A stretch of DNA of 36,655 bases from a virus, in IMG/VR virus record IMGVR_UViG_3300046514_000747, positions 1 to 36,655 of that record. One strand, written 5' to 3'. Positions 4,768 to 23,504 of the stretch are shown in pieces. Under the pieces are notes generated by a model. The model ran no database searches. It had not been told where the DNA came from and saw only the letters and a program-made list of their open reading frames with translations. How positions within the stretch are numbered: the first letter of the stretch is position 1; the number at the start of each line of letters is the position of its first letter. The translations under genes and the position numbers were made by a program.

Positions 4768-4775
4768 GACGGGCG

Positions 4776-5023: not shown

Positions 5024-5030
5024 GGGAACT

Positions 5031-5112
5031 CCTGTGAAGACGTGAAACATGAAACGTGAAAGATGAGCACCGATCGGGCGCATTCATGTCTTCATGTTTT
5101 CATGTTTCATCG
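5031..5112. repeat. Stuttered CATGAAAC inverted repeat
   Basis: The left arm contains GTGAAAC/CATGAAAC/GTGAAAG words, and the right arm contains the complement (TCATGT and TTTCATG words), around a GC-rich centre near 5065-5080. It fills the junction between the tail-tube candidate and the 66-aa gene. The transcript could form a long imperfect hairpin there. Confidence 0.7.
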
Positions 5113-5116
5113 ATGA

Positions 5117-6022: not shown

Positions 6023-6048
6023 GATGACCTCGGTTCAAATTTGAATCG

Positions 6049-6642: not shown

Positions 6643-6648
6643 GCAGAT

Positions 6649-7194
6649 TCACGGGATATACGGCCCCGTCTCGATCAGGAGCGTGCAGGTCCAGAGGTCC
6701 CCGATGCCGGCCTTGTCCTCGCGCGGGCTGCGCCGGGGCGGGGCGAACAGCGTCGGCTGCTGGATGGAGAGATAATCGCCCGTCCCCTGCAGGGTCAGCA
6801 TATCGGTCAGGACCCCCTGCACCTTCTGGGCGAACCAGAGGAACGGCTCGCTATTCTGCGCTTTCATTTCGTCGGGCGTGTCGGCCTCGAAAGTGACGAA
6901 GACCTTCGCCGTCACCACGAACTGGCCCAGGGCCAGCTGCTCGCCGCTCATCGGCTCGCCGCCGGTCCCCTGCCGGCCGGTGAACCAATCAACGATGCAG
7001 AAGGGACGCTGGATCTCCAGCTCATCCTTGGTGTAGGCCTCGCCCGCCGCGGGTGGCGGGAGCATCAGAAATGTATGCGTCCGCGCATCCGTGGCATTCG
7101 CCGTGGCGGTCCAGGTCTGCCAGTTGCTGCTGGCGGCCACCAGGCTGCGCAGATTCTCCAAGGGACCGACGATGAGACCGGTATCGGCGGGCAT
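6649..7194 (-). CDS. Tail completion/terminator candidate (181 aa)
   Basis: The protein starts MPADTGLIVGPLENLRSLVA, then has a Trp-rich stretch (SNWQTWTATANATDA), a proline/acidic loop and a beta-rich C-terminal half (LALGQFVVTAKVFVTFEAD, ending LWTCTLLIETGPYIP). The N-terminal helix followed by a beta domain, and the position between head-tail connector and tail tube, suit a tail terminator or completion protein. No diagnostic motif was recognised. The next gene starts seven nt after its stop, so the two may be translationally coupled. Its upstream region is occupied by a stuttered GGTGACA repeat. Confidence 0.5.
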   Translation of the reverse strand: MPADTGLIVGPLENLRSLVAASSNWQTWTATANATDARTHTFLMLPPPAAGEAYTKDELEIQRPFCIVDWFTGRQGTGGEPMSGEQLALGQFVVTAKVFVTFEADTPDEMKAQNSEPFLWFAQKVQGVLTDMLTLQGTGDYLSIQQPTLFAPPRRSPREDKAGIGDLWTCTLLIETGPYIP

Positions 7195-7196
7195 GA

Positions 7197-7300
7197 TCGT
7201 GACAGGGTGACAGGGTGAGGGGGTGACAAGGTGACAGAAAGACGCCTGCGCGTCACCCGGTCACCTTGTCACCCGGTCAGCTTGTCATCTTGTCATCCTC
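7197..7300. repeat. Stuttered GGTGACA inverted repeat
   Basis: The left arm (about 7197-7241) has several GGTGACA/GGTGAC words in tandem; the right arm (about 7253-7298) has the complement (GGTCACCTTGTCAC-type words). It lies at the junction before the tail-completion gene and partly overlaps the end of the head-tail connector gene. A sibling with the same words sits at 7667-7745, so this connector gene is flanked by the same repeat family. Confidence 0.8.
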
Positions 7301-7659
7301 CCCGCCGGATCGGCGCGGAGCGGCCTTCTCAGCTCGAGGACGGCCCAGCCGGTGATGTTGCTGAAGCTGCTTTCGCTGAAAACGACCCAGTCATCCCCGT
7401 CGATGGTGTAGATGCCGCCGCGGATGCGCTCGGAGGGCCCGCCCTCGGCGGTGGCGATCGGGACCTGAATGAACCGTCGCTGCGTCTTGATCTGCTGCTG
7501 GTTGCTGTCATCGACGAAATTTCCCTCGACCTCCCCCGGGATGCCGGTGACGGTTTCGGGATCCGCGTCCGGGTCGGCCGGCTGAAACGAATAGGAGGCC
7601 CCGTGCTGCGCGAGCAGCTCGGAGCGGCCGATGTCAGAGAAGGATTGGAAGGCGGACAT
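7285..7659 (-). CDS. Head-tail connector/joining protein candidate (124 aa)
   Basis: I start it at ATG 7659 (MSAFQSFSDIGRSELLAQHG), because the longer frame would run through a stuttered repeat. The core (NQQQIKTQRRFIQVPIATAE, GGIYTIDGDDWVVF) is a compact beta fold ending in a basic tail. The size and position after the capsid gene suit a lambda FII/HK97 gp6-gp7-like head-tail joining protein. No unambiguous family signature is visible and no Shine-Dalgarno motif precedes the ATG. Its C-terminal Arg/Pro-rich end overlaps the next repeat, so the last residues may be repeat-derived. Confidence 0.55.
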   Translation of the reverse strand: MSAFQSFSDIGRSELLAQHGASYSFQPADPDADPETVTGIPGEVEGNFVDDSNQQQIKTQRRFIQVPIATAEGGPSERIRGGIYTIDGDDWVVFSESSFSNITGWAVLELRRPLRADPAGRMTR

Positions 7660-7666
7660 GGGAGGG

Positions 7667-7745
7667 ATGACAAGGTGACAGGGTGACAAGGTGAAGGCGA
7701 CTTCCATGGTCACCTTGTCACCTTGTCACCCCCTCACCTTGTCAG
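7667..7745. repeat. Second stuttered GGTGACA inverted repeat
   Basis: The left arm (about 7667-7697) is four tandem GACAAGGT/GACAGGGT words; the right arm (about 7710-7745) is the complement (CACCTTGTCACCTTGTCACC-type). It lies immediately downstream of the capsid stop and upstream of the connector gene. It could fold as a strong hairpin in the late transcript and may attenuate tail gene expression after capsid. Confidence 0.8.
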
Positions 7746-7747
7746 AC

Positions 7748-8713
7748 TTACGAGCTGACGCCGGTCAGGAGGTGACCACACTCCTTGTTGATCACCTTCT
7801 CGCCCGTGCGATGGCGCACCCGGATGATGCTGGAACGCCGCTTTTCCTCGCGGTATTCCTCGACGACCCCCTCGGGGGTGCCGCCGGTGCCGGTGAAGTT
7901 GAAGGTGCGGGCCAGGGCCGGCTCGCGCAGATCATCGCTGGTGGCGACCTTGGCGACCATGACCGAGCCCTTGGGCCAGATGGCCGCCAGGCTCGCCGAC
8001 TGGCCGCTGTTGGCGCTGTTGTAGACGGCGTTGCCCACCAGCACCTGCGAGACATCCCACACCTCGGCCAGCATCTGGGTGGTGATGTTCTTCGGGTCAT
8101 CGCGGCCCGAATACTTGATGCGGTCCACGATCTGGGCGCACTCGCGCACGTCCCGGAAATCCTGCCAGGTGAGGATGACCGAATTCGGCACGATGCCGAA
8201 GTTGAGATAGACCTTCTTGCTGGCCCCCAGCACGTCGTCGATCGGCGTGGCGGTGGCATGCGTGGTCCAGGGGGTGCTGACGCCGGTGGTCAGGCTGGAG
8301 CCGGTCCAGGTGGTGGTGTTGATCACCAGGGTCTTGACCCGCACCTCGTAATTGCGGGCGATGATGTCCCGCGCCCGCTTGGCGCTGATGAGCTCGGCGT
8401 CGATGGTGTAGGCGTAAATCGCCTGCTCCTCATCGTCGACCGGCTCCTCCCAGCCGTTCTCGGTGGTGACGTAGTTGTCCTGGGTGAAGGTGGACTGCCC
8501 GCGCGAGTAGCCGGCGCCGGGGGCGCGGGCCGTGTTCGGGCTCGGCTCCAGGAGCTGCTCGATTTTCACGCGCGAGAAGTTGGCCGTCGCCAGGGCGACG
8601 TCGATGACCGGGGCGACCTTGGCCCCGATGAAGCCGGCACGGGAGGCCTCCAGGTCGAATTCCTCGAGGGCCAGCCCGAGATCGGGCCGTTGAATTGCAC
8701 TACTGGGTTGCAT
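7748..8713 (-). CDS. Major capsid protein (HK97/lambda gpE-like)
   Basis: A 321-aa protein (MQPSSAIQRPDLGLALEEFD) with the profile of a lambda-E/Mu gpT-type capsid protein: an N-terminal arm, a P-domain-like segment with GYSRGQSTFTQDNYVTTEN, a central long helix (EEQAIYAYTIDAELISAKRA), a beta region and a final KRRSSIIRVRHRTGEKVIN stretch. The order (protease/scaffold, decoration, capsid, connectors) is that of lambda. The start has a good GGAAGGAAC site. A 196-bp leader separates it from the decoration gene and may allow independent regulation of this most abundant protein. The family assignment rests on context and general fold cues. Confidence 0.8.
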   Translation of the reverse strand: MQPSSAIQRPDLGLALEEFDLEASRAGFIGAKVAPVIDVALATANFSRVKIEQLLEPSPNTARAPGAGYSRGQSTFTQDNYVTTENGWEEPVDDEEQAIYAYTIDAELISAKRARDIIARNYEVRVKTLVINTTTWTGSSLTTGVSTPWTTHATATPIDDVLGASKKVYLNFGIVPNSVILTWQDFRDVRECAQIVDRIKYSGRDDPKNITTQMLAEVWDVSQVLVGNAVYNSANSGQSASLAAIWPKGSVMVAKVATSDDLREPALARTFNFTGTGGTPEGVVEEYREEKRRSSIIRVRHRTGEKVINKECGHLLTGVSS

Positions 8714-9806: not shown

Positions 9807-10343
9807 TCAGGCGAGCTCGGCCACGCCGATGCGGCCGACGTGATCCTTGGCCGCCTGGAACTTTCGCCCCGGGTTGGCCTCGCTCACGACTTCGGCCTGC
9901 AGCTCGGGGTTCTCCTTGGCGATCTTGCTGACCGCCTTGGCGCGGGGCATCCCCTTGGCCACCTGGGCCTGCACCAGGGCGGCGAAACGCTCATTGGCGC
10001 TCCCCTCCTCAGCGCCGGCATCGGCGGCATTGCCCGATCGGTTGACCGGCGGGCTGGCGATGGGACGCAACCCCGGCGAAGCGCCGGCGGCGGTCTTTCC
10101 CGTCTTCTCCAGCTCGGCGTTCTTGGCGGTCAGGGCCGCGTTCTCCTTGCCGAGCACGTCGGCGAAGGCCCCCTTGGCCTCGACCAGGGTGAGGCACCCC
10201 TTGGCGCATTCCAGCGCGAAGGCCGGATGATTGGGGAAGCTGGTCTGCAGCTCCTCAATGGTGGCGGCCTTGGGGCCGCTGTCTGCGGACGTCGCCGGAT
10301 TCGTGGCGGGCGCCGCGGGATTGGGTTGAGCCTGGTTATTCAT
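9807..10343 (-). CDS. Nested scaffold protein, internal start (178 aa)
   Basis: Within the protease gene, an in-frame ATG at 10343 is preceded by AAAGGAGACTGGT, a strong ribosome binding site at an ideal distance. Translation from here gives MNNQAQPNPAAPATNPATSA, an Ala/Pro/Gln-rich N-terminus, then coiled-coil-like helices (GKENAALTAKNAELEKTGKT) and a basic C-terminal tail. Lambda uses the same layout: gpC protease with an in-frame internal Nu3 scaffold. The sequence therefore predicts two products from one gene, with the protease targeted to the scaffold by the shared C-terminus. The start is strong evidence, but actual expression is not shown by sequence alone. Confidence 0.75.
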   Translation of the reverse strand: MNNQAQPNPAAPATNPATSADSGPKAATIEELQTSFPNHPAFALECAKGCLTLVEAKGAFADVLGKENAALTAKNAELEKTGKTAAGASPGLRPIASPPVNRSGNAADAGAEEGSANERFAALVQAQVAKGMPRAKAVSKIAKENPELQAEVVSEANPGRKFQAAKDHVGRIGVAELA

Positions 10344-11486
10344 ACCAGTCTCCTTTCGTGAATTGGCCTCAGCGCCCGTGGCGGCGTCGGACGCACGCGC
10401 GCCCCCGCCCGCCGCCGCTGCCTCGGCCGTTGGTGTTTGAATGGTTGATTGAATGGGATCCCCCGCCTGCGGTTGTTCGGTTCGTGGTTGTTCGGTTTCC
10501 TGTCGTCGTGCACCGACCGGCTGCTGCTGACTATTCGGTGGATTGACCTCGGCCCGGGCGCGGGCATAAAGCGCGTCCAGCGATTCGACGCGATCGATCA
10601 GCCCCAGTTTCTTCGCCTTGCCGGCGATCCAGATGCCCCCGTCGGCCACCGCCTCCACCTGCGGGCGGGTCATCTTGCGACCCTTTTCCACGGCGGCCAG
10701 GAACCCCTCGTTCAGATCGTCGATCTCCTCCTGCCAGCGCGCCAGCTGATCGGCGGTGATTTCGCTCCCCGGCGTGCCGGCCCCCTTCATCGGCGCGGGC
10801 TTGCCTCCCACCTGACCGCGCAGGAGATGCACGCGCACGCCCTGCATGGCCGCCGCGGCGGATTGGTCATAGACCACGCCGACGGTGCCGATCGAACCCA
10901 CCTCGGCGTTTCCGTTGGCGCTGATCGATCGGGTCTGCACCGCCTGGAGATAGGCCGCCGATGCGCCCAGGTCCTCAATAAAGGCGTAACAGGGCTTGGC
11001 GCCCGACAGCATGGAGATGTCCGAAGCAAGGTCATAGGCGCCCGCCACCGTGCCGCCGGGGGAATCGATTCGCAGCAGGACGCATTTGACGCGCTCATCC
11101 GATGTCATCCGCCGGATGGTCTGCCGCATCATGACCGTGCTGGTGGTGTCCCCCGAGGCCTCGTGCTTCATCATCTTGCCGGAAATGTCCGCCATGGCCA
11201 CGCCATCGAGGATTTCGTAGTCATACCCATGATTGACCTCGACCGTCTCCCGGTTGGTGGCGCTGAAGCTGCCGGACCATTTGCTGCTCGCCGGCGGCTG
11301 GCGGCGCGGCGGCTCGTCATCCTCCATCTGTCGCACCTGCACCTGCTGAAGGTGCATGGAGAGATTGAGGCTCTGCACGAAGCGCAGCAGCTTCGCCCCG
11401 CGCTCGGGTTCCATGAACCAGTAGCCGAACCACTGGCTCAGGTAGGGAATCTGCATCGACTGATCGAATTGCATGCGATTACTCAT
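9807..11486 (-). CDS. S49 (SppA-type) prohead protease fused to scaffold
   Basis: This 559-aa protein has an S49 peptidase domain: LLRIDSPGGTVAGAYDLA (residues ~138-155), the catalytic-Ser segment GAS176AAYLQ, and VGSIGTVGVVYD (~197-207), followed by ADGGIWIAGKAKKLGLIDRV, the usual end of the domain. In lambda-like phages this enzyme degrades the scaffold and itself during prohead maturation. After ~residue 330 a Gln/Pro/Glu-rich linker leads to an Ala-rich, helical scaffold region. A second in-frame ATG with a strong ribosome binding site lies at 10343 (see nested gene). The Glu/Gln/Pro linker is encoded by a stuttered GAACAACC-like repeat. N-terminal ~80 residues look like a non-catalytic extension. 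Confidence 0.85.
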   Translation of the reverse strand: MSNRMQFDQSMQIPYLSQWFGYWFMEPERGAKLLRFVQSLNLSMHLQQVQVRQMEDDEPPRRQPPASSKWSGSFSATNRETVEVNHGYDYEILDGVAMADISGKMMKHEASGDTTSTVMMRQTIRRMTSDERVKCVLLRIDSPGGTVAGAYDLASDISMLSGAKPCYAFIEDLGASAAYLQAVQTRSISANGNAEVGSIGTVGVVYDQSAAAAMQGVRVHLLRGQVGGKPAPMKGAGTPGSEITADQLARWQEEIDDLNEGFLAAVEKGRKMTRPQVEAVADGGIWIAGKAKKLGLIDRVESLDALYARARAEVNPPNSQQQPVGARRQETEQPRTEQPQAGDPIQSTIQTPTAEAAAAGGGARASDAATGAEANSRKETGMNNQAQPNPAAPATNPATSADSGPKAATIEELQTSFPNHPAFALECAKGCLTLVEAKGAFADVLGKENAALTAKNAELEKTGKTAAGASPGLRPIASPPVNRSGNAADAGAEEGSANERFAALVQAQVAKGMPRAKAVSKIAKENPELQAEVVSEANPGRKFQAAKDHVGRIGVAELA

Positions 11487-12944: not shown

Positions 12945-13065
12945 GGCTAACCGCTGTGGGATGCTGCGGTTACGCCATCTCCAGAATCGAGGGTTTTCCT
13001 CGGTAAAACACGATATTTAGCTTGCCCCGCCGTGATCCGCTGTCTATATTGTATTACATGATGTA
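12945..13065 (+). promoter_or_regulatory. Promoter P1 and operator region of cassette unit 1
   Basis: A sigma70-like promoter, TTGCCC (13022-13027), 17 bp, TATATT (13045-13050), lies 52 bp before the VWA gene. A perfect 11-bp palindrome TACATGATGTA (13055-13065) covers the expected transcription start, a good repressor site. Upstream an inverted repeat TAACCGC/GCGGTTA (12948-12954 and 12966-12972) is followed by GCCATCTCCAGAA. The same arrangement, including the palindrome and TTGCCCCGCCG, is found before the AAA+ gene (16957-17080), so the two are co-regulated copies. Confidence 0.75.
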
Positions 13066-13116
13066 TGACATAAACAGCAACACGAACAACGCAAGAGCAA
13101 AGGAGATCAACTGATC

Positions 13117-14637
13117 ATGGCAACGACCACCACCATTTACGGGCAGCTGGCTTATGAGGGCTTCGCTCGCGCCATCGGCTCCAAGCTGGGGCTGAATGTC
13201 AAAGTCGCCAGCGGCAGCAATGCCTGCATCAACGCCAAGGGCGTTATCACGCTCCCCGGCATGAGCACCTACCAGACCGCCCAGCAGTTCACTGTGACCT
13301 GCGGCGTGCTGATTCATGAGATGGCCCACCAGTTCTACAAGTCGCATGACCTGATCGATCCGAAGCGCGACAAGCTGGAGCATGACTGCCTCAACGCGGT
13401 GCTGGATGTCGCCGATGAAACATGGATTGGCGAATGGTTCACCCGCAACGGGAACATCCGCCCCGCCGACCTGCTTGAAATCATCAACAATGACGCGATC
13501 AACCAAAACTTCGCCCAATATTGCGACTGGCAGAATCCCGCTTCCCATGCTTGGAAAATTCTCTGCATCGGGATTTTCAGCGCCCGCGTCCCCACCGGCT
13601 ATAACCGCCGAAGCATCTACCGGCTCCGGCGCTATGCCGATCAGCAGGCCAGCCAAGCTGGAGTCGACGCCAAGGCCTGCTGGCGACTGATCAAGCGGGC
13701 GATCCGGCAAGATCAAGAGGACCCGACCCCGACCGCCAGCCGCTTCCCGAAGCTGCTCAAGCTGGCGAAGAAAATCGCCGCGATCCTGCAGCCGTTCGCC
13801 GCCGCGCACAACGCGGGAGGCCCATCACTGGACGGAGGCGGGACCGGCCCCCTCGATAAGGCGCTGGGTGCGGGCAGCAAGAAAATGCCCAAGGGGGCCA
13901 CTGAAGCGACCGCGATCGATGGAGCGGAGGCCGCTGAGAACGCGATAGGGGGAACCGGCGCAGGCTCCGGCGGGAACTGTGGCTATGAACGCAACGCGAG
14001 CTCCGCGACGTTCGACCTGATCCGCCCCGCCGTGCAGCGCGTGGCCCAGCGGATCGCCACCGATGGGGATGGAGCTCTACTGATCGACGGATTGAATAAC
14101 GGCTCCTCGCTCGGGCAGGCCCATCGATTTCTGACCGACGGACAGTGCCTTGCCCGCTGGAACATTTCCGACAACGCCGAGGGGGTTTCCGTCGCCGTGC
14201 TGCTCGATTGCTCCAGTTCGATGGATCATCAGCTGGCTGATTGTGCGGGGCTCGCCAAGGCGTTCGTGCTCAGCATGAAAGAGGCCGGGGCCGCCAAGGC
14301 GCTGACGTTCAGCGACACCGTGGAGGACTCCGACGATTTCAGCCATGTCACCGTGCAGGGCGGCACCTCCACCGAGCTCGGGATTCGCAAGGCGACCAAC
14401 TGGCTCGCCCCGCGCCCCGGCAAAAAATGGATCGTCGTGATCACCGACGGGGCCCCCAATGACGCGATCGCGACCGATGATGCCTGCACCGAGGCGAGCG
14501 CCAAGGGGATCAAAATCCTAGCCGTGGGGCTCAACTGCCAGATCAAGATGGCGGGAGCAACCGCCGTTACCGCCAGCGATGCCAATCACCTCGCGATCGA
14601 ATTGGACGCGGCGGCGCACCTGATCGAATCAAACTAA
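13117..14637 (+). CDS. Zincin-like metallopeptidase fused to VWA domain
   Basis: The 506-aa protein has an HExxH motif (H67-E-M-A-H71) in GVLIHEMAHQFY with a probable downstream acidic ligand near VLDVADETW (E101), as in VWA-associated zincin-like domains (DUF2201/CobT-like). Residues 230-290 are a Gly/Ala-rich linker. A C-terminal VWA domain has a complete MIDAS: DCSSSM (D364, S366, S368), GGTSTELG (T417/T419) and VITDGAPND (D444). VWA proteins of this type usually partner a MoxR/CobS AAA+ ATPase, which is encoded in unit 2 of this cassette. Start ATG 13117 has AAGGAG. It is the first gene of unit 1, and all catalytic residues are present. Confidence 0.85.
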   Translation: MATTTTIYGQLAYEGFARAIGSKLGLNVKVASGSNACINAKGVITLPGMSTYQTAQQFTVTCGVLIHEMAHQFYKSHDLIDPKRDKLEHDCLNAVLDVADETWIGEWFTRNGNIRPADLLEIINNDAINQNFAQYCDWQNPASHAWKILCIGIFSARVPTGYNRRSIYRLRRYADQQASQAGVDAKACWRLIKRAIRQDQEDPTPTASRFPKLLKLAKKIAAILQPFAAAHNAGGPSLDGGGTGPLDKALGAGSKKMPKGATEATAIDGAEAAENAIGGTGAGSGGNCGYERNASSATFDLIRPAVQRVAQRIATDGDGALLIDGLNNGSSLGQAHRFLTDGQCLARWNISDNAEGVSVAVLLDCSSSMDHQLADCAGLAKAFVLSMKEAGAAKALTFSDTVEDSDDFSHVTVQGGTSTELGIRKATNWLAPRPGKKWIVVITDGAPNDAIATDDACTEASAKGIKILAVGLNCQIKMAGATAVTASDANHLAIELDAAAHLIESN

Positions 14638-14671
14638 CCCAAACCGGCGCAGCAGCGCCCAAGGAGAAGCC

Positions 14672-15820
14672 ATGAGCGTCGAAACTCTCAGTAACCTGCC
14701 GCAAGCCGCCCTGCATTATCAGGATGGCCGCAGCGACAAGGTATACCAGATCGCGGTCGAACCCGCAGGCCCGGCCGGCTATGCCGTCAACTTCGCTTTC
14801 GGGCGGCGCGGCGGCGCGCTGCAGACGGGCAGCAAAACGCCCGCGCCGGTGCCGCTCCCCGAGGCGATGCGAATCTATAACCGCATCATCACCGAGAAGC
14901 GCGCCAAGGGATATGCCGACGCCGCGGGCGGCGCGTTTCAGCCGCAGCAGAGTGCAGAGCCATCCACCGAGGCGCCTGCCGCCGAACCGGCCGCAGCACC
15001 GACCGTCTCCGGCGGGCCGCTTCCGCAGCTGCTCAACCCGATCGATGAGGCGACCGCGCTGGGACTGATCGGCGACAACCGCTGGTGTCTGCAGGAGAAG
15101 CATGACGGCAAGCGCGTCCTGCTCACGATCGACATCGGCGCTGGCATGGTGCAAGGGACCAACCGGCGAGGCCTGCCCTGCAGCATCCCGCAGGTGATCG
15201 TCGACGCCGCTCGCAAGCTGAGCACCGGCGGCATCATCGACGGCGAACTGGTGGGCGACACATTCTATGCCTTCGACCTGCTCTCCCTTCGAGGGCAATC
15301 GATCCGCCAGGTCCGGTATATCGACCGCTACATGCGGCTGCAGACCCTGCTTGGTTCGCACCGGGGTCCCCTCTTCATCAGCGAGACCTATATGGGACAG
15401 CTGGGCAAGTCGCAGGCGCTGGCGCGGCTCCGCAAAGCCAAGGCCGAGGGGGTGGTGTTCAAACAGAATGACGCGCCCCATACAGCGGGGCGACCGTCGA
15501 AGCTGGGCCCGCAGTTGAAACTGAAATTCACCGCCACGGCCAGCGTGATCGTCGCGGGGATTACTCCCGGCAAGCGATCCATCGAAATGGCCCTGCTTGA
15601 AGCAGGCCAGCAGACCGAGGTCGGGCGCTGCACCATCCCGCCGAACGCGACCATCCCCAAGCCCGGTTCGATCGTCGAGGTGCAATACCTCTACGCCTAC
15701 CCGGGCGGCTCCCTCTTCCAGCCCGTCTATCTCGGCGAGCGCGATGACGTGAGCATCGCCGACTGCAGTATCAGCCAGCTGAAATACAAGGCCGATGCCG
15801 AGGAGGAGAGCGAAGCCTGA
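14672..15820 (+). CDS. WGR-domain ATP-dependent DNA ligase
   Basis: Residues 1-80 form a WGR-like nucleic-acid-binding domain in which the namesake motif is FGR (FAFGRRGGALQTGSKT, 41-56). After an Ala/Pro linker a nucleotidyltransferase domain (from ~118) contains ligase motifs: motif I K143-H-D-G146-K-R148 with the adenylated Lys, motif III-like DGELVGDTFYAFDLL (190-204), motif IV EGVVFK (259-264), and motif V LKLKF (282-286). The last ~80 residues form an OB-like domain. It would join nicked DNA using ATP. It lies 34 bp after the VWA gene with AAGGAG before ATG 14672. WGR-ligase fusion is unusual. Confidence 0.85.
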   Translation: MSVETLSNLPQAALHYQDGRSDKVYQIAVEPAGPAGYAVNFAFGRRGGALQTGSKTPAPVPLPEAMRIYNRIITEKRAKGYADAAGGAFQPQQSAEPSTEAPAAEPAAAPTVSGGPLPQLLNPIDEATALGLIGDNRWCLQEKHDGKRVLLTIDIGAGMVQGTNRRGLPCSIPQVIVDAARKLSTGGIIDGELVGDTFYAFDLLSLRGQSIRQVRYIDRYMRLQTLLGSHRGPLFISETYMGQLGKSQALARLRKAKAEGVVFKQNDAPHTAGRPSKLGPQLKLKFTATASVIVAGITPGKRSIEMALLEAGQQTEVGRCTIPPNATIPKPGSIVEVQYLYAYPGGSLFQPVYLGERDDVSIADCSISQLKYKADAEEESEA

Positions 15821-15889
15821 GCGGGTCCGCTGTCAACCCGCTTTCGCGAGCGAGAGCGGGCTACAGCGCACCGGCCGCATTGCCGGACA
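15818..15889 (+). repeat. Direct repeat with hairpin, copy 1
   Basis: This 72-bp element starts at the ligase stop codon (TGA) and ends just before the TTGGAG ribosome binding site of the methyltransferase. It matches the 76-bp copy at 18171-18246, which differs by 4 nt inserted in the hairpin loop. The stem CCCGCTTTCG / CGAGAGCGGG (one G-T pair) would form a stable RNA hairpin between the two genes. Its position at two gene joins suggests a translational or mRNA-processing element. Confidence 0.9.
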
Positions 15890-15902
15890 TTGGAGTTACT
15901 CG

Positions 15903-16910
15903 ATGATGACCGAAACGATCGAACGGACCCCGAAACCCTCAAAGGGGCTCGCGCGCGCCCAGCAGTTCCGCAAGCTGGCGCTCGGGCTGGAGGCCACGAT
16001 CGCCGACAAGCGGCGGCCCATGAGCCAGAATCCCACACCCAAGCGCAACCGCGAATATGGCGAGCGACTGCATGAGGCGGACAATCTTCATCGCCTGCGC
16101 CTTGCCCTGCTGGCGCTCGCCGATGGACATGAGCGGGGAACGATTCCCGCCGGCCTGGCGGCGCTGAAATCCAAGGCGGAGATCGCGCCGCTGATCTATA
16201 AGGGAACCCTATCGGGCGGATATTACGACTGCATCCCCTGTCCCGACTACCGCGATACCTCCCCGGCGGCCAAGCTGGTGCAGACAATGATTGCCAACGG
16301 CCTGGCGTCGATCGAGGCGGGAGCCCGCGAGGCCGAAACCGACCGCCTGGAGCGGGATGCCCTGCTCCGCGGGTATCCGGGATTCTTCCCGACACCGCGC
16401 GACATCGCCCGCCGGGTGGCGGAGCTGGCCCTGCTGCAACCCGGCCAGAGGCTCCTGGAGCCGAGCGCCGGAACCGGCCGGCTGGCCGAGGCCGCCCTGG
16501 CGGAGGTGCCCGACCTGCGGATCACCCTCCTCGAACGGGTGGACGATCTTCGCCGGATCCTGACCCGCAAGGGTTTCAACACCGACCCTTGCGATGATTT
16601 CATGCAATGGAACGGCGCTCTCACCAGCCCATCGATCCTGTTCGATCGGATCGTGATGAATCCGCCCTTTGAAAATGGGCAGGACGCTGAGCATGTCAGC
16701 CACGCCTTCCGGATGCTCAAGCCCGGCGGGCGGCTGGTGGCCATTGTCTCGGCCGGCCTCTTCTTCCGCTCCGACCGCCGCGCCGTCGCGTTCCGGCAGC
16801 TGCTGGACGAGCATGCCGAGGACCCGCAGGGGATGGAGCTGGGCACCGACGCCTTCCGCGAATCGGGGACCGGGGTCAATTGCCGGATCGTGGTGCTGAA
16901 TCGCGATTGA
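15903..16910 (+). CDS. DNA N6-adenine methyltransferase-like protein (335 aa)
   Basis: A class I methyltransferase fold is indicated by LLEPSAGTGRLAEAAL (SAM-binding motif I, residues ~184-199) and NPPF (motif IV, 253-256), which is typical of N6-adenine or N4-cytosine DNA methyltransferases. Upstream FFPTPRDIARRVAELALL is the usual pre-motif helix in phage versions. The first ~115 residues (basic, RNREYGERLHEADNLHRLRL) form an N-terminal helical DNA-binding-like domain with a CxxC (CIPC, 110-113). No target-recognition domain or restriction partner is present, so it probably acts as an orphan enzyme for protection or regulation. It starts at ATG 15903; an earlier frame start lies inside the repeat and is rejected. 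Confidence 0.8.
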   Translation: MMTETIERTPKPSKGLARAQQFRKLALGLEATIADKRRPMSQNPTPKRNREYGERLHEADNLHRLRLALLALADGHERGTIPAGLAALKSKAEIAPLIYKGTLSGGYYDCIPCPDYRDTSPAAKLVQTMIANGLASIEAGAREAETDRLERDALLRGYPGFFPTPRDIARRVAELALLQPGQRLLEPSAGTGRLAEAALAEVPDLRITLLERVDDLRRILTRKGFNTDPCDDFMQWNGALTSPSILFDRIVMNPPFENGQDAEHVSHAFRMLKPGGRLVAIVSAGLFFRSDRRAVAFRQLLDEHAEDPQGMELGTDAFRESGTGVNCRIVVLNRD

Positions 16911-16956
16911 AGGGGCGAGGGATTTCCCGCGATTCCCCGGTGATCCCGCAGACCCG

Positions 16957-16993
16957 ATGGCCTAACCACGGCGAGAAACGAGGGTTAGGCCAT
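16957..16993. repeat. Perfect 11-bp inverted repeat upstream of promoter P2
   Basis: ATGGCCTAACC (16957-16967) and GGTTAGGCCAT (16983-16993) form a perfect inverted repeat with a 15-nt spacer. It lies after the methyltransferase stop and 44 bp before the -35 of P2, so it can act as a transcription terminator for unit 1 or as an operator. A degenerate relative (TAACCGC/GCGGTTA) is at the equivalent place before P1, which favours an operator. Confidence 0.7.
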
Positions 16994-17036
16994 TTCCAGA
17001 AAGCCGCGAAAATCCCGCGAATTCCGGAGATTTGTG

Positions 17037-17080
17037 TTGCCCCGCCGCGTTCCGTTGTCTATATTGCATTACATGATGTA
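17037..17080 (+). promoter_or_regulatory. Promoter P2 and operator of cassette unit 2
   Basis: TTGCCC (17037-17042), 17 bp, TATATT (17060-17065) and TACATGATGTA (17070-17080) reproduce P1 almost base for base over about 60 bp, including the downstream ATGACA-TAACAGCAAC segment. The duplicated block strongly suggests one regulator for the two units. The start ATG of the AAA+ gene is at 17124. Confidence 0.8.
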
Positions 17081-17123
17081 TGACACTAACAGCAACGCGA
17101 ACACTAACACAAGGAGCCCCGCC

Positions 17124-18173
17124 ATGTCCCGCACGTTGACCAATCAGGACCTGACCGACATCGCCAACCGCCGACTCGCCGGTGAAAAATGGAGCGACAT
17201 CGTCGCGAGCACCAAGCTGGGTGCACAAGCGATCCGCAACCGCCTTCGCACGGCGGGGCTTCTGAACGCCGCGATGGGTACGCCAAAGACGCCGCGCCGC
17301 CGCGCCAAGCAGGGGACGCCCAGCGCCAAGCCCGCGACGGAATCCGCCGCCGAGACGACCGGCGCGGTCGCCTCCATTGTGCAGAGCGAGCCAGCCAATA
17401 ATTCCTATTTCGTTGCCCCGAGCTGGTACCCGCTTCTCCGCTTCGCGATGGATTTTGAGAAGGGTGCCACCCTGTTCGGGCCGCGAGGGTGCGGCAAGTC
17501 CACCACCATCCGCGAGCTCGCTCGCGAAATGAAGCGACCAACCATCACCATGCAGTGTGCCGCCAATATGCAAATCGATTCGCTGATCGGCTGCTGGACC
17601 GGCGAAGCGGGCACGCTCAAGTTCATCGACGGGCCGCTGACCACGGCGGGGCGAACCGGCGCGTGGCTGCTCGCTGAGGAATCCAACATGATCCACCCGG
17701 GCGTCTGGTCGCTGGTGAATACCCTGACCGACGCGACGGGCGAGGGCCTGCGACTGCCCACGGGCGAAGTGATCCACTTCAGCCCCGAGTTCCGTCTCGT
17801 GCTGCTCTATAACGACGGCTATACGGGGACCCGCGAAGTCAACGGGGCCTTGAAGGATCGTCTGATGCCCATCTATTGCGGGTATCTGGAACCCCAGCAG
17901 GAGGTCCAGCTGCTCGCGTCGATCACCGGCGCTTCCATGAGCGACTGCAAGCGGATTCAGGACGTCGCCGGAATGATCCGCGCCGCCAAGCTGCGGTTTG
18001 ACCTGTCTCCGCGATCGCTGATCCGCTGGATCAGGCTGGTGCAGAAGGCCGGGCTCAACTGGGTGCAAGCCTTCACCGTCGCGATCATCGATCTGGTGGG
18101 GCCCGTCGAGCTTGCCGGACCGCAGCGGACAGTCCTTGAGGAGATCGCCCGAAACAGCGTGGCTCAGTGGTGA
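17124..18173 (+). CDS. MoxR/CobS-like AAA+ ATPase with N-terminal HTH
   Basis: The 349-aa protein starts MSRTLTNQDLTDIANRRL at ATG 17124 with AAGGAG upstream; a longer frame beginning at 17034 runs through the promoter and is rejected. Residues ~8-48 form an HTH-like helix-turn-helix (SDIVASTKLGAQAIRNRLRT). Walker A GPRGCGKST is at 119-127, Walker B-like AWLLAEESNM at 180-189, and ALKDRL (242-247) supplies a likely Arg finger as in CobS/MoxR proteins. MoxR ATPases remodel proteins through a partner VWA protein. The zincin-VWA protein of unit 1 is the natural partner. The HTH and AAA combination is unusual. Confidence 0.8.
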   Translation: MSRTLTNQDLTDIANRRLAGEKWSDIVASTKLGAQAIRNRLRTAGLLNAAMGTPKTPRRRAKQGTPSAKPATESAAETTGAVASIVQSEPANNSYFVAPSWYPLLRFAMDFEKGATLFGPRGCGKSTTIRELAREMKRPTITMQCAANMQIDSLIGCWTGEAGTLKFIDGPLTTAGRTGAWLLAEESNMIHPGVWSLVNTLTDATGEGLRLPTGEVIHFSPEFRLVLLYNDGYTGTREVNGALKDRLMPIYCGYLEPQQEVQLLASITGASMSDCKRIQDVAGMIRAAKLRFDLSPRSLIRWIRLVQKAGLNWVQAFTVAIIDLVGPVELAGPQRTVLEEIARNSVAQW

Positions 18174-18246
18174 GCGGGTCCGCTGTCAACCCGCTTTCGC
18201 GAACGAGCGAGAGCGGGCTACAGCGCACCGGCCGCATTGCCGGACA
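18171..18246 (+). repeat. Direct repeat with hairpin, copy 2
   Basis: Second copy of the element at 15818-15889. It begins at the AAA+ stop codon (TGA 18171-18173) and ends just before the AAGGA ribosome binding site of the next gene. The stem CCCGCTTTCG/CGAGAGCGGG is intact and the loop is 4 nt longer. The near-identical sequence on both copies suggests recent duplication or selection. Confidence 0.9.
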
Positions 18247-18256
18247 AGGAACTGCC

Positions 18257-18688
18257 ATGCGACGTAAACGGGAACTTTTCTACTGGGGCGACGGGTCCTA
18301 CGACCGCGCCAACACCATCGACGGCATCCAGCGATTCTGCACCGACGCGCTGGACGGGGCCAATTGCGGACAAGTGACCGGGCCGGATGGGGCGAAATAC
18401 AACGTCGCCATCGCCGCGCGGCTCGTCCCGGTGAATCAACCGGTGCGGCCCCCCATCGTGCTGATCGAGGTCGAGGGTGGCTGCGTATCCGAGGTCAGCT
18501 CCAGCGAGCCCATCGAGGTGGTGCTGTTCGATTGGGATAATATCAAGGCGGGCGACCCGATGCCCGCGATGCGCGACGCTTGGGAGGCCAGCGATGACGC
18601 AGAGGGAAAGGTCAGGCAATATCGCGACGATCAAGCCGAGGACCTTCGCGAGGAACGCAAGGGCGCCGCGAAAGGAGCCCCGCGATGA
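18257..18688 (+). CDS. Hypothetical protein of cassette unit 2 (143 aa)
   Basis: The protein begins MRRKRELFYWGDGSYDRANT at ATG 18257, preceded by AAGGA. Residues 1-105 look like a mixed alpha/beta domain (IEVVLFDWDNIKAGDPM is conserved-looking), and the last ~35 residues are a charged helix (DDQAEDLREERKGAAKG). I recognise no family and see no membrane or signal segment. Its stop overlaps the start of the next gene (ATGA), so the two are translationally coupled. It follows the repeat element directly, and belongs to unit 2 with the AAA+ ATPase. Confidence 0.6.
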   Translation: MRRKRELFYWGDGSYDRANTIDGIQRFCTDALDGANCGQVTGPDGAKYNVAIAARLVPVNQPVRPPIVLIEVEGGCVSEVSSSEPIEVVLFDWDNIKAGDPMPAMRDAWEASDDAEGKVRQYRDDQAEDLREERKGAAKGAPR

Positions 18689-19041
18689 AATGCGCCGGAT
18701 GCTCCAACACCGCCAGCGGGCCGGACGGGCTCTGTGACCCCTGCAGCGGCCGGCGGGCCCGGTACTTTGCTTTGCGCGACAAAACGCAATACAATTGCGA
18801 CGACGAATCGAGGATGCCCATGAGCAAACGCAAACAGGCAACGCAGGCCCCGGCCGCGACGGGGGACAACCCCTTCGCGCCGCGCGAGGCGCGGTCGGTG
18901 GTCTTCACCTTCCGCATGACGCCGGGGGAGGATGCCGCCCTGGCCGAACTGGCCGGCAAGGGGGGCGATAAGAGCGAGGTGATCCGCAAGGGGATCGCGC
19001 TGCTCTTCGAACAGCAGCGCCAGCAGGGAGGACGCCGATGA
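18685..19041 (+). CDS. Zn-ribbon plus ribbon-helix-helix-like protein (118 aa)
   Basis: Residues 1-22 have a paired CxxC zinc ribbon (CAGC and CDPC). After a linker, SVVFTFRMTPGEDAALAEL followed by KSEVIRKGIALLFEQQ (residues ~70-112) resembles a ribbon-helix-helix DNA-binding domain, as in CopG/Arc-like regulators. The same frame has an alternative start at 18814 or 18820 with a promoter-like sequence just upstream, so the RHH half could be made alone. It is coupled to its upstream neighbour and overlaps the ASCH gene by ATGA. It is the best candidate for the regulator that binds the palindromes of P1 and P2. Confidence 0.6.
   Translation: MKCAGCSNTASGPDGLCDPCSGRRARYFALRDKTQYNCDDESRMPMSKRKQATQAPAATGDNPFAPREARSVVFTFRMTPGEDAALAELAGKGGDKSEVIRKGIALLFEQQRQQGGRR
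18767..18795 (+). promoter_or_regulatory. Possible internal promoter and palindrome
   Basis: TTGCTT (18767-18772), 17 bp and TACAAT (18790-18795) lie within the Zn-ribbon/RHH gene, ~20 bp before the internal ATG starts at 18814 and 18820. TTGCG and CGCAA (18772-18776 and 18785-18789) form an inverted repeat within the spacer. The -35 fits poorly (3 of 6), so this is tentative. Confidence 0.3.
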
Positions 19042-19382
19042 AGATCAAGGCGCTATCCATCCGCCAGCCGTGGGCCTCGCTGATCGCCCATGGGCAGAAG
19101 ACCGTGGAGAAGCGATCAAGGCCGACCCAGTTCCGGGGAGATTTTCTGGTCTGCGTCTCGGGTCGCGATACCCATCCGGATAAGAGCCTGCCACGGGGCG
19201 TGGCTCTCTGCATCGTCGAGCTGTTCGATTGCCGGCCCCTGCAGCCGGGCGATTGCAGCGCCGGGGGCGGCATCGCCTACGACCCGACCCAGTTCGCCTG
19301 GCTCCTCCGCAATGTGCGACCGCTCAAGACGCCCTTCCCGGTGAAGGGTTCCCTCAGCTGGTTCACCGTCGAGCTCCCCTGA
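19038..19382 (+). CDS. ASCH-domain protein (114 aa)
   Basis: The sequence MKIKALSIRQPWASLIAHGQ with KTVEKRSRPTQFRGDFLV is characteristic of the ASCH fold (PUA-like), which binds RNA or nucleotides and in some members acts as an RNase or amidohydrolase. The length, ~110 residues, is that of a stand-alone ASCH protein. It starts inside the stop of the RHH gene (ATGA overlap), so it is co-translated. It is the last gene of unit 2 and its stop is only 1 bp from the stop of the convergent minus-strand gene, with no terminator visible. It may modify or bind RNA in a regulatory or defence role. Confidence 0.75.
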   Translation: MKIKALSIRQPWASLIAHGQKTVEKRSRPTQFRGDFLVCVSGRDTHPDKSLPRGVALCIVELFDCRPLQPGDCSAGGGIAYDPTQFAWLLRNVRPLKTPFPVKGSLSWFTVELP

Positions 19383-19824: not shown

Positions 19825-20021
19825 GCATGCTCCGCGGTGACATCAACGCCCCGATCGGAGTAATAACACTCGATGAGCTGCGCCAGCTCGCGCCGCACCA
19901 GCGGATCCGGCTCGGCGTCCAGCAGGCTTTGCAGGACGCCGCGCCCCTCGTGAGCCTTCATGCGGGCGCGGTCAATTCGGGCTTGCCGTTCTCGCGCATC
20001 GATCGGGGCAGGTATTCCCAT
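19821..20021 (-). CDS. Small hypothetical protein (66 aa), start uncertain
   Basis: I give a start at ATG 20021 (MGIPAPIDARERQARIDRAR), overlapping the end of the ABC-GNAT gene by 64 bp; an alternative ATG at 19961 would overlap its stop as ATGA and give 46 aa. Both versions share the helical C-terminus (HEGRGVLQSLLDAEPDPLVR RELAQLIECYYSDRG). It ends by overlapping the next gene. No family is recognised. Compact overlap with both neighbours suggests a real coupled gene rather than a shadow. Confidence 0.5.
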   Translation of the reverse strand: MGIPAPIDARERQARIDRARMKAHEGRGVLQSLLDAEPDPLVRRELAQLIECYYSDRGVDVTAEHA

Positions 20022-21124
20022 GAGGTCGTGAGCCTTCCGAAACTGGTCTTGACGCGGTGCCCGTAATTGAAGCTGGTCGACGCCGGAGCCAGCGAATGGC
20101 GGTGCAGGATCCACCGGTCGGGGCGGGATAGCCGGTAGGCCTTGATCGAGGGAGAGCTGGTGACCGCCCGGTACCGGAGATGCTCGCGCTCCCAGAGGAG
20201 CTCGGCCACCTCCTCCACCAGCCGGTTGCCCAGCCCGATCCCCTGGAAATCCGGAAGCACCACGGTGCGATGCCCGCGCCGCCAGCCGACGTGCCCCATG
20301 CTGGGGAGGATGCTGAAGAATCCGAACAGCGTCCGCGGGATGGTGGCGCTCTCCAGCGTGGCCAGGAAGACCCGGGCGCTGGGAGAGAGCTCGCCGCTCA
20401 GATAGTGAAACGGCTTAAATAGCGGCCAAAACGATTTTGTCCCGCGCCAAAGGCGGACGGTGATCCCGGGGCGTCGCCAAAGCAACCCCCTTGCGGGATC
20501 GAGCGCGCTGCTGAGGGTCAATCGGTTGATGGCCGGCTCGTAAACCCAGTCCGGCTCGAGCCAGTCGAGCACGTCCCGGTGACAGCTGACGGCGATGAAT
20601 TTCTGATTCCGCCGGCGGACGGTTTTGGCCACCGCGGCCGATCCAATTTGCGCGACGGTCCGGTCCACCACCGAGGTGAACTCATCCACCACCGCGAGCT
20701 GCGGCAGCTCCGCCAGCGTGCGGGCGAGATTCACCCGGAACTGCTCGCCGTTGCTCAGCACCCGGAACGGTCGCACCCACGCCGGCGGGGAGCTGAAGCC
20801 GACGGAGGAGAGGAGGTTGACGATCTCCTTGATCCCCAGCGACTTGGGGAAGGCGTCCAGGATGCTCTTATCGTCGGGCCATTGCCAGCTGCTGACCAGG
20901 TTGTCGCCGAACCATTCGCCGGCGATGGTGGACTTGCCGCATCCCGAGGGCCCGACGATGACGCCGACGTTCCATTTCTCGGGGAGTGTCAGGTCCAGCT
21001 CCCAGGTCTGACGGGACCGCTTCTCCGGCTCAACGTCAAACATGCCGACCATCTGCTGGACCCGCGGGCTGCGCACCACGGGCACCTCGCGGGTGATCTT
21101 CTTTTTGAATTGGATCGCGGGCAT
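19958..21124 (-). CDS. ABC-type ATPase fused to GNAT acetyltransferase
   Basis: The N-terminal half is an ABC-class ATPase: Walker A GPSGCGKST (58-66), signature LSNGEQ (123-128), Walker B LAVVDE (143-148) and H-loop SCH182. The C-terminal half has a GNAT acetyltransferase fold with the acetyl-CoA motif QGIGLGNR (294-301) inside VVLPDFQGIGLGNRLVEEVA. No membrane segment is present, so this is not a transporter. Similar ABC-GNAT fusions occur next to ParB-like genes in many phages; the pair here is separated by 7 bp. Likely it acetylates a small molecule or protein in an ATP-controlled manner, but the substrate is unknown. Confidence 0.8.
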   Translation of the reverse strand: MPAIQFKKKITREVPVVRSPRVQQMVGMFDVEPEKRSRQTWELDLTLPEKWNVGVIVGPSGCGKSTIAGEWFGDNLVSSWQWPDDKSILDAFPKSLGIKEIVNLLSSVGFSSPPAWVRPFRVLSNGEQFRVNLARTLAELPQLAVVDEFTSVVDRTVAQIGSAAVAKTVRRRNQKFIAVSCHRDVLDWLEPDWVYEPAINRLTLSSALDPARGLLWRRPGITVRLWRGTKSFWPLFKPFHYLSGELSPSARVFLATLESATIPRTLFGFFSILPSMGHVGWRRGHRTVVLPDFQGIGLGNRLVEEVAELLWEREHLRYRAVTSSPSIKAYRLSRPDRWILHRHSLAPASTSFNYGHRVKTSFGRLTTSWEYLPRSMRENGKPELTAPA

Positions 21125-21131
21125 GTTGCGC

Positions 21132-21809
21132 TCAGGCGACCTGCGCCTTGCATTCCAAACCCTCGGTCTGGAATTTCTCCAACAGGCTCAGCTGGTGCTG
21201 TTCACTTTCGCATTGGACGATGATCACCCACTGGTCGGCGAGCTCGCGCAGTCGCTCGCTGGGGCGTTTCTTATCGCCGGCAGGGGCGGGCTCGGGGGCC
21301 GCGTCGGAGAGCATCTCCTCCACGTCCTTGTCACTGAGGCCCAGGGCATCCAAGTCCATGTCGGTCTCGCGGAGTTCCTCGATCTGGACGGCCAGCTCCT
21401 CCTCATCCCAGCCGGCCTGCTCGCCGGTCCGGTTGTCGGCGATGGCGAACGCCTTCAGGGCGGCGCCGCTCAGGTTGCTCGGGATGGCGGCGATGTATTT
21501 CCACCCCAGGGCCCGCCCGCCGGCGACGCGGCCGTTGCCGATCTTGACGATTTGATTGTCCGGATCGAAATGAACCAGATGCTGCTGCCCAAACCGCTTC
21601 AGAGAGGCCTGTGTGGAGGCGAGATCCTTCTCCCCATGCAGCCGGGCGTTGTGCGGATCGAGCACCAGCGAATCGATCGCGACGGCAAACCGCCTCAGCT
21701 CGGGGGCGATGTGGGCGAGTTCCTGGTCGGTCGGGGCGGAGGATGCAACCGCCGAGTCGCCGAGACGCCGAGAGGACCGCCGAGTTGAATTATTTTTGGG
21801 TTTACTCAT
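21132..21809 (-). CDS. ParB-like N-terminal domain (Srx fold) protein
   Basis: Residues ~45-160 match the ParB N-terminal (ParB/Srx) fold: DPHNARLHGEKDLASTQASL, KRFGQQHLVHFD, KIGNGRVAGGRALGWKYIAA, then AIADNRTGEQAGWDEEELAV. These are the phage ParB-like proteins with predicted nucleotidase/nuclease or CTP-binding activity. The C-terminal ~50 residues are charged (KKRPSERLRELADQW). The N-terminal stretch (NSTRRSSRRLGDSAVAS) is encoded by a stuttered repeat and is probably not part of the fold; the true start may be further downstream. It is next to ABC-GNAT in a phage-typical pair. Confidence 0.75.
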   Translation of the reverse strand: MSKPKNNSTRRSSRRLGDSAVASSAPTDQELAHIAPELRRFAVAIDSLVLDPHNARLHGEKDLASTQASLKRFGQQHLVHFDPDNQIVKIGNGRVAGGRALGWKYIAAIPSNLSGAALKAFAIADNRTGEQAGWDEEELAVQIEELRETDMDLDALGLSDKDVEEMLSDAAPEPAPAGDKKRPSERLRELADQWVIIVQCESEQHQLSLLEKFQTEGLECKAQVA

Positions 21810-21845: not shown

Positions 21846-23504
21846 TCAATTCTCTTCCGGCTTGTCCGCCCCGCCGGCGGGCGCGGCGTCCTGGCCGTCT
21901 CCAAGGGCGCCGGTCTGGTCGATCGTGTCCTTGAGCGTGGCGCCGCGGTACATATCGCGGTTGAGGATGTCGCGCCAGGTGATCTTGATTTCGCTGTCGG
22001 GGAACTTGTCGTTGAGGGTCGCCGCGGCGGTCATCGCCTGCTCGATGGCGCTGGCGTTGTCCAGGACGGTTTCCTTGATGATGTCCTTGATGTCCACGCC
22101 CCGGTTGGCGCTGATGCGGCGCGGGGAGCTGAGCAGGTTCTGCAATTGGAACGCATCCGCCTGCGCATCCTGGAGCGGCATCACATAGGGCCAGTTGGGC
22201 GTATTCCAGCGATGCTTGAAGACGTCGGGGCCCTTGGCTTGAAAATGATCCCGCAGCTGCCCGGCCAGCTTGTCGGATCCCCGCATGCGGCGGCGCATCC
22301 GCCAGAGATAGAGGGGGCGATGGAAGCGCCGGATGAACTGTTTCTGGTTGGTCCGGAAACCGACGCGGGCGCTGTCCAGGGCCCCGCGCCAGCCCGAGAA
22401 ATTGGTCTCGCGGGCATCCAATAGCACCAGCACCAGGGGCAGCCCCAGATTCAACCCACAAATCTGCAGGAGATATTTCAGATGGGCCATCGCCTCGTTG
22501 GTCGGCATATTGGGATTGAAGCTGGAGGCCTTCACGCCGGCCGGAAGAGCGATCTTCTGCCCCGGGGCGATCGCCTCATTGATGATCTCCGCCAAGGTGC
22601 GCTGGCCCCCGGGAGGGACCTCGCGCGGGCCGGTCTGCGGGTTGAACGGCGCCCCGCCCTGCTGGACCTGCTCGAAGAAGATCCCAAAGCAGGCGGCCAT
22701 CTGCTGCTTGACCAGCAATGCGAAGCTGGTGTCATCCATCATGGTGGCCACGTCCACGATCGGGTGATAGGCGGTCATCCCGCGCGTCAGGCTCTGCCGC
22801 TCGGGGTGATAGACCTGGAAGAGCTGCCGGCCCCCGTCGGCCGCATCCCGAAACGGTATCTCGGTCAGATCGGCCAGATTGACGGTCCGCTTCCACGGCT
22901 CAATGGTCGGCGGCAGGAAAAAGGCGCTGAGCCGCTTGCGGTACTGATCCATCATCACGCCCAGGGCGATGTTTTTCTTGGTGCGCGTCGGGGTGCGGCA
23001 GAGATGTCCCTCGAAGCATTGCAGCTTGAGATCCTCGCCGTCCCCCGATTCGTCGATGCCGGCGATCCAGTGATCGCCATCGACGATCATCGCCTCATAG
23101 GCGCTCTGCTCGATGTCGGGCAGGGCCATTTCGCCCGAGAGATCGATCCGGTCCGGGTCGCTCGCCCAGTCGTGAAAGTCCGCGGCATAGGCCTGGTTCA
23201 GATCCTCATCATCCGTCTGCACATCCAGATGAAAGCCGTTCTGGACCTGCTGCTGGACGGCGCAGCGGGTGATCCGCTTGATCATGGGATCGTTGCGGTG
23301 CATGTCCCGCACATATTCCATCCCCATCAGGTAACGGCTCTCGATGCGGATGTGCCAATCGGCCCCGGCGCCGATCGGTGAGACGCCCGCGCGGAGCCGG
23401 CGGAAGCGGCTCTGCTGGTAGAGCTGGTACTCGGCGTTGTAGCCGTCCCGCGCATCCCGGAACTTCTGGGACATCACGGTCAGAGAATTTTGCGCGGCGA
23501 GCAT
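21846..23504 (-). CDS. Portal protein (lambda gpB family)
   Basis: This 552-aa protein has the layout of a lambda-type portal: an N-terminal wing (FRDARDGYNAEYQLYQQSRF, SRYLMGMEYVRDMHRNDPMI), a beta/alpha stem with ATMMDDTSFALLVKQQMAAC and GLNLGLPLVLVLLDARETNF, the long crown-like helix region, and an acidic, Gly/Ala-rich C-terminus. The portal forms the ring through which DNA enters and leaves. Size fits lambda gpB (533 aa). Upstream is the gpW-position gene. The protease that should follow lies 10 kb further, beyond the cassette. Confidence 0.8.
   Translation of the reverse strand: MLAAQNSLTVMSQKFRDARDGYNAEYQLYQQSRFRRLRAGVSPIGAGADWHIRIESRYLMGMEYVRDMHRNDPMIKRITRCAVQQQVQNGFHLDVQTDDEDLNQAYAADFHDWASDPDRIDLSGEMALPDIEQSAYEAMIVDGDHWIAGIDESGDGEDLKLQCFEGHLCRTPTRTKKNIALGVMMDQYRKRLSAFFLPPTIEPWKRTVNLADLTEIPFRDAADGGRQLFQVYHPERQSLTRGMTAYHPIVDVATMMDDTSFALLVKQQMAACFGIFFEQVQQGGAPFNPQTGPREVPPGGQRTLAEIINEAIAPGQKIALPAGVKASSFNPNMPTNEAMAHLKYLLQICGLNLGLPLVLVLLDARETNFSGWRGALDSARVGFRTNQKQFIRRFHRPLYLWRMRRRMRGSDKLAGQLRDHFQAKGPDVFKHRWNTPNWPYVMPLQDAQADAFQLQNLLSSPRRISANRGVDIKDIIKETVLDNASAIEQAMTAAATLNDKFPDSEIKITWRDILNRDMYRGATLKDTIDQTGALGDGQDAAPAGGADKPEEN

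Follow-up and report, generated by a model that had tools for sequence, protein, structure and literature searches.

Paired genes for a MoxR ATPase and a metallopeptidase-vWA protein have been described in group 2.2 jumbo phages, where a role in virion assembly was suggested (PMC7824862). A two-gene cobST cluster is also described in viruses, for which hijacking of the host CobN was proposed (PMC8651126), and an AAA/vWA pair occurs in Hardycor1 and other haloviruses, in Hardycor1 within a replication/accessory module (PMC7911831). MoxR-vWA pairs are viewed as capturing and remodelling their clients, and MoxR-vWA ternary systems are proposed bacterial conflict systems (PMC7159879). Here we present an AAA+ ATPase and a zincin-VWA protein encoded in the IMG/VR record IMGVR_UViG_3300046514_000747, whose 36,655 bases were analysed whole and are called the window below. 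The pair belongs to a single plus-strand block of seven genes (13117-19382), which lies between the portal and protease genes of the minus strand and breaks the minus-strand pattern. The block consists of two units, VWA-ligase-methyltransferase and AAA+-U5-CxxC/ribbon-helix-helix (RHH)-ASCH. At a probability of roughly 0.5, we consider the pair to be an early-expressed remodelling protease in DNA metabolism, with the WGR-domain ligase as its frequent partner.

The zincin-VWA protein (13117..14637, plus strand, 506 amino acids) matches the Pfam VWA family (1.3e-6) and contains HEMAH at residues 67-71 and the metal-ion-dependent adhesion site (MIDAS) motif DCSSS at 364. Motif and alignment indicate an N-terminal HExxH metallopeptidase-like domain fused to vWA, the architecture of the phage zincin-vWA subtype. 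Residues H67, E68, H71, N93, D97, D364, S366, S368, T443, D444 and G445 are invariant in an alignment of eight divergent phage proteins. The invariance of the zincin residues among them argues for a zincin-like site that is intact, D97 being the third ligand. A model based on this eight-sequence alignment (mean predicted local distance difference test score, pLDDT, 63) replaced a poor three-sequence AlphaFold model (pLDDT 49). It is fair over the N-terminal half and the VWA domain, with pLDDT of about 77-93 for residues 61-200, and includes a low-confidence linker at approximately 230-355. The full-length matches of this model in BFVD are to phage VWFA/CobT-like proteins (best 9e-14). Its top matches among solved structures are the midasin MIDAS domain (Z 16.1, root-mean-square deviation 2.8, 173 aligned) and NorD (Z 15.8, deviation 3.2, 174 aligned), both tied with other VWA domains. 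These matches span residues 343-506. For the zincin half the search gave no match to a solved structure, from which a new fold should not be deduced.

The ATPase (17124..18173, plus strand, 349 amino acids) belongs to the MoxR clade, with a match to AAA_5 (1.7e-19), the Walker A sequence GPRGCGKST and a relationship to CbbQ, NorQ and midasin. The profile search of the PDB gave midasin at 3e-47, CbbQ at 3e-26, NorQ at 5e-21 and CobS at 4e-11. The helix-turn-helix that the earlier note had placed at its N-terminus was not found by Pfam. As expected for a MoxR-clade pair, a VWA protein with an intact MIDAS is co-encoded, and the two genes are linked in three contigs. Among solved structures, the folds of both proteins are nearest to the NorQ-NorD, CbbQ-CbbO and midasin systems. 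Midasin, CbbQ and NorQ act in concert with a VWA domain or a VWA partner, and NO reductase, rubisco and pre-60S particles serve as clients of the three systems. We know of no VWA partner in these systems that is a HExxH zincin.

It is important to compare the pair with the viral examples. Like the jumbo-phage pair (PMC7824862) and g028/g029 of phage AR9, it consists of two neighbouring genes, with an AAA_5-type ATPase, an N-terminal HExxH and a C-terminal MIDAS VWA domain. However, the window protein has no match to Pfam DUF2201_N/DUF2201 (PF13203/PF09967) at E<1, the phage is a small one of lambda type, and the window has separate twin promoters and a ligase and methyltransferase in the block. 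With the viral cobST genes of phages OC, ANB28, Mae-Yong1326-1 and B1VFA it shares the AAA+/VWA gene pair, the MIDAS, in several cases a HExxH near residue 70, and an hhalign match of 98% over the VWA half. The AAA+ identity, however, is 22-25%, the VWA protein has no Pfam CobT_C/CobT match, whereas the proteins of B1VFA and ANB28 do, and a corrin pathway context is absent. Judged from its sequence, the pair is a divergent member of the known phage MoxR/zincin-vWA kind, outside the Pfam DUF2201 and CobT families. The earlier note had regarded the combination of genes as no known unit. This does not apply to the core, since MoxR/metallopeptidase-vWA and cobST pairs are already described (PMC7824862, PMC8651126). 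Of the link of the pair to a WGR-ligase, no report was found within the open-access literature searched.

Close homologues of the pair were found in two viral contigs only, G001 (AAA+ 58%, VWA 50%) and G002 (AAA+ 64%, VWA 36%). The two genes overlap in a single operon in G002 and are 0.7 kb apart in G001, each with its own promoter. The AAA+ and zincin-VWA proteins very probably form a functional pair, because their genes are adjacent or near-adjacent in all three family members and stand behind twin promoters or in one operon. More distant AAA+/VWA pairs, or an AAA+ gene with an unnamed neighbour, occur in isolated phages and in one island with conjugation genes. Their neighbours include ssb/bet, DNA polymerase III alpha, subunits of a recombination endonuclease and a clamp loader. 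The AR9 pair (DUF2201) is downstream of an annotated early promoter, the AR9 transcription paper having no text on g028/g029, and the pair of HK2 has RNA polymerase and dCTP deaminase genes nearby. Pairs of this kind are spread over phages and plasmids and bear misleading annotations (CobS/CobT, HNH endonuclease, hypothetical protein); that of Mae-Yong1326-1, for example, is annotated CobS/CobT. In INPHARED, zincin-VWA proteins, among them those of HK2, Moonfish, XaC1, S-TIM5 (RefSeq) and pYD6-A (RefSeq), carry the label 'HNH endonuclease', apparently a propagated misannotation.

The two units of the block are preceded by copies of one promoter/operator repeat, at 13012..13088 before the VWA-ligase-methyltransferase unit and at 17027..17103 before the AAA+ unit (both plus strand; promoter scan and repeat search). 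The copies are 86% identical over 77 nucleotides, and each would drive the unit that follows. These twin TACATNATGTA promoters have -35 TTGCCC and -10 TATATT at 13022-13050 and 17037-17065 in the promoter scan, followed directly after the -10 by the dyad TGT-N2-TACAT-N-ATGTA-N2-ACA, of which the second copy differs at one end base. The core of the repeat has no third occurrence in the window, where 0 were expected, and the similarity upstream of the VWA and AAA+ genes exceeds that of all 1492 other pairs of open reading frames (ORFs) tested. The matching promoters claimed for the two units by the earlier note are therefore real. The promoter repeat of G001 (87 nucleotides, 82% identical, TTGACA-17-TATACT) likewise occurs nowhere else in its contig. 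It is unrelated in sequence to that of the window, so that in two phages, with different promoter sequences, each partner has its own promoter and the two promoters match.

The second gene of the block codes for a WGR-domain ATP-dependent DNA ligase (14672..15820, plus strand, 382 amino acids), with matches to Pfam DNA_ligase_A_M (3.9e-8) and WGR (1.6e-4) and to phrog_114 (8.6e-19). Its active-site motif KHDGKR conforms to the KxDGxR of this ligase type. The layout of WGR, adenylation and C-terminal domains is that of other phage WGR-ligases, such as Tunturi_5 gp61, at 31-44% identity; unlike the window ligase, gp61 adjoins a PAPS-reductase gene and has no AAA+/VWA pair in its 12-kb flanks. 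In PADLOC, the N-terminal part of the window ligase matches WGR_XIII (1.3e-25) and the C-terminal part HEAT-ARM_XIII (2.8e-12), hinting that the proteins of these defence models share parts with WGR-ligases.

A profile of three ligases identified relatives in 18 other viral contigs. The hidden Markov models of the window family miss the pairs near these ligases, and a motif scan (HExxH followed by DxSxS) was therefore applied to the loci and then to the fetched contigs; a pair with different motifs could have escaped it. An AAA+/zincin-VWA pair was present in six contigs, at distances from the ligase of 0.65 kb (L028), 3.4 kb (L032), 18.7 kb (L033), 2.8 kb (L034), 5.9 kb (L037) and 7.0 kb (L040). 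In each there is a single pair, on the strand of the ligase, and in five it is within the 10 kb that the earlier note had proposed for such a search. The ligase and pair are closer than under random placement (Fisher p=0.020, five informative contigs), in a test made post hoc, with the pattern already seen and with few contigs. Because L037 and L040 look syntenic and L029 and L030 are near-duplicates, the contigs represent fewer lineages than their number. The ligase-linked pairs belong to subfamilies other than that of the window, DUF2201 in at least four cases (matches in L032, L034, L037 and the L033 contig). As most are thus of DUF2201 type, ligase and pair are associated in more than one lineage of pairs, and this recurrence supports a functional link between the ligase and the pair.

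In L028 the ligase, AAA+ and VWA genes are near-consecutive, with the same intergenic palindrome before each. About 11 copies of this palindrome, GAATCnYGTACRRGATTC, occur at 1305-8496 of the contig (also called G004); they are confined to the early region of its 42 kb and mark the whole of it. Twin promoters were considered as a general rule of such pairs and rejected, the upstream similarity in L028 being not special (5/227 pairs as good).

The early-gene neighbourhood of the distant pairs, together with the ligase, favours a role in DNA metabolism. According to this reading, the block would be an accessory, separately controlled gene set on the opposite strand within the late (head) region. 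Its core would be a two-component remodelling machine, in which the MoxR-clade ATPase may assemble into a ring and the VWA protein would bind a client through the MIDAS and link it to this ring. The N-terminal HExxH zincin would cleave, or may once have cleaved, whatever is being pulled by the ring. The likeliest clients would be proteins on DNA or on the replication/repair machinery early in infection, and the WGR-ligase could seal the nicks left behind. The methyltransferase, ASCH, U5 and CxxC/RHH proteins would be accessory, and the RHH protein, a candidate repressor, would probably act on both promoters through the shared dyad. A narrower proposal, which we regard as rather improbable, is that WGR-ligase and pair form a recurrent phage module for repair of protein-blocked DNA ends. 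The ring and zincin would remove or cleave proteins trapped on DNA, in a manner likened to p97 with SPRTN/Wss1, the WGR domain would recognize the break and the ligase would seal it. From sequence alone, modification, repair and counter-defence are not distinguishable. The recurrent ligase partner and the shared control of the pair genes offer a testable lead on the role of such pairs in infection.

Several observations weigh against the DNA-metabolism reading. The ligase is optional, being absent, like the methyltransferase and ASCH genes, from G001 and G002. In 12 of the 18 ligase contigs, several of which are fragments, the motif scan detected no pair. The link may reflect a general clustering of early genes, the pairs being of other subfamilies. 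Homologues of two of the ligase-linked VWA proteins were found in 16 and 428 of 50,697 isolated-phage records, a background prevalence of about 1% that comes from isolated phages instead of IMG/VR and is not like-for-like. In addition, we infer the protease activity, the client and the timing of expression.

This reading overlaps with its four rivals, and the probabilities given to them do not add up to one. The best of the rivals, which we hold to be possible though clearly less probable, is that the block is moron-like cargo: useful single genes collected in the head region behind duplicated promoters, of which only the AAA+ and VWA proteins cooperate, the ligase, methyltransferase and ASCH protein being mechanistically unconnected with them. 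The earlier note had proposed a co-functional cassette. As G001 and G002 lack these three genes, the block of seven is not conserved as a single cassette, and the pair is missing from G003, the first relative identified for the ligase. Relatives of the methyltransferase and ASCH genes occur in unrelated phages and no link of theirs to the pair was seen: none for the methyltransferase in the ligase contigs, and the sole ASCH neighbour, in L030, has no pair. The scans of viral and genome contigs identified neither a close relative of the whole cassette nor an empty site. Duplication of the promoter and of a hairpin (below) suggests assembly by duplication, and an opposite-strand block with its own promoters inside a late operon would also suit cargo. 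The recurrence of ligase and pair in six of 18 other contigs, closer than random, argues against it, as does their near-consecutive order in L028 behind one palindrome type, although the palindrome is characteristic of the entire early region.

Two further explanations appear unlikely to us, to a similar degree. In the first, the pair would remodel or cleave structural proteins during virion assembly, and the position of the block between portal and protease genes fits this. For the archaeal virus ATV, a related pair is reported to act in virion assembly or processing. The same role has been proposed in print for this architecture in the group 2.2 jumbo phages (PMC7824862). However, the block is on the opposite strand with its own promoters, the pairs of other phages are found among replication and early genes, and the S49 gene already provides the window phage with a head protease. 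In the second, counter-defence or superinfection exclusion, methylation would shield the phage DNA, the pair would disable host defence proteins and the RHH repressor would tune the block in lysogens. An orphan methyltransferase, regulated promoters and the conflict systems proposed for MoxR-vWA ternary arrangements (PMC7159879) are in line with this. On the other hand, the PADLOC matches are merely generic methyltransferase, ATPase and WGR similarities; no VMAP, iSTAND or FtsH third component was found in the block by Pfam, NCBIfam or PADLOC, with no search aimed at VMAP models; and no integrase was seen in the contig, which is incomplete. A cobaltochelatase role, in which the pair would stand in for CobS/CobT and raise cobalamin production by the host, is very improbable: distant relatives are annotated CobS/CobT and CobN hijacking was proposed for viral cobST (PMC8651126), but the ATPase is closer to midasin, CbbQ and NorQ than to CobS, the VWA protein lacks the CobT_C/CobT match of B1VFA and ANB28, and the block holds no corrin gene.

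The contig is incomplete, with a minus-strand frame cut off at the left end. Its structural genes, on the minus strand, include the GpA-type terminase (34052-36163), the lambda-type portal (21846-23504), the S49 head protease (9807-11486) and the major head protein (7748-8713). The seven genes recognized in the earlier note were borne out by homology or codon bias, and they form the two units that it described. The codon-bias scores of the block ORFs are 0.24-0.36, well over background, compared with 0.25-0.55 for the minus-strand structural genes, and among the long plus-strand ORFs of the window only these seven score well above background. GGAG/AGGA-type ribosome sites precede the starts in the block, including those of the AAA+ (17124), methyltransferase (15903) and U5 (18257) genes. 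Base composition does not differ between block and flanks, and Rfam and tRNA searches gave no match. The note's statement that the block interrupts the portal-protease order is correct as to position; however, portal and protease are also kept apart by accessory genes on the minus strand (ParB-like, ABC/GNAT and others), and thus the plus-strand block is not the sole interruption.

A hairpin repeat was likewise assigned to each unit, and one copy is present in each, at the ligase/methyltransferase junction (15818-15889, plus strand; -36.5 kcal/mol, folding z -2.2) and the AAA+/U5 junction (18171-18246, plus strand; -45.6 kcal/mol, folding z -4.4). The copies have 43 nucleotides identical, and each extends from the stop codon of the upstream gene to the ribosome site of the gene that follows. 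Located inside the units and having no T-run, they are not terminators; mRNA processing or attenuation would be more likely than termination. No intrinsic terminators were found at the unit ends, including that of the second unit, terminator-like sites being near chance. The exact hairpin core is absent from all other viral contigs searched.

The orphan DNA methyltransferase (15903..16910, plus strand, 335 amino acids) matches Pfam MTS (1.1e-6), phrog_18947 (3.6e-52) and the DNA methyltransferase phrog_15406 (1.1e-48). Its motifs are EPSAGTG and NPPF, and it is probably an amino-methyltransferase; peptide patterns retrieved no relatives from viral contigs. U5 (18257..18688, plus strand, 143 amino acids) has coding bias and no family match. 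In the small CxxC/RHH protein (18685..19041, plus strand, 118 amino acids), both family calls made in the earlier note are weak, the Zn-ribbon at 0.095 and the RHH at 2.1e-4 (PHROG 876 transcriptional repressor, residues 68-114). The last gene codes for an ASCH-domain protein (19038..19382, plus strand, 114 amino acids; Pfam ASCH 1.4e-7, phrog_3193 1.9e-33).

Other features were observed in the window and its relatives. An ABC-ATPase/GNAT fusion (19958-21809, minus strand; phrog_11143 1.9e-90) adjoins the ParB-like gene just after the portal, and the same neighbours are found in Gordonia phage Jace as gp86/gp85. Contig L002 contains a direct repeat at 18909-19278 with a 37-nucleotide spacing and seven register copies. 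An alpha-L-fucosidase-like gene of lower G+C (0.54-0.57) lies between terminase and portal (23880-25991, minus strand), and the C-terminal 128 amino acids of its product have 50% identity to G002 14144-14524.

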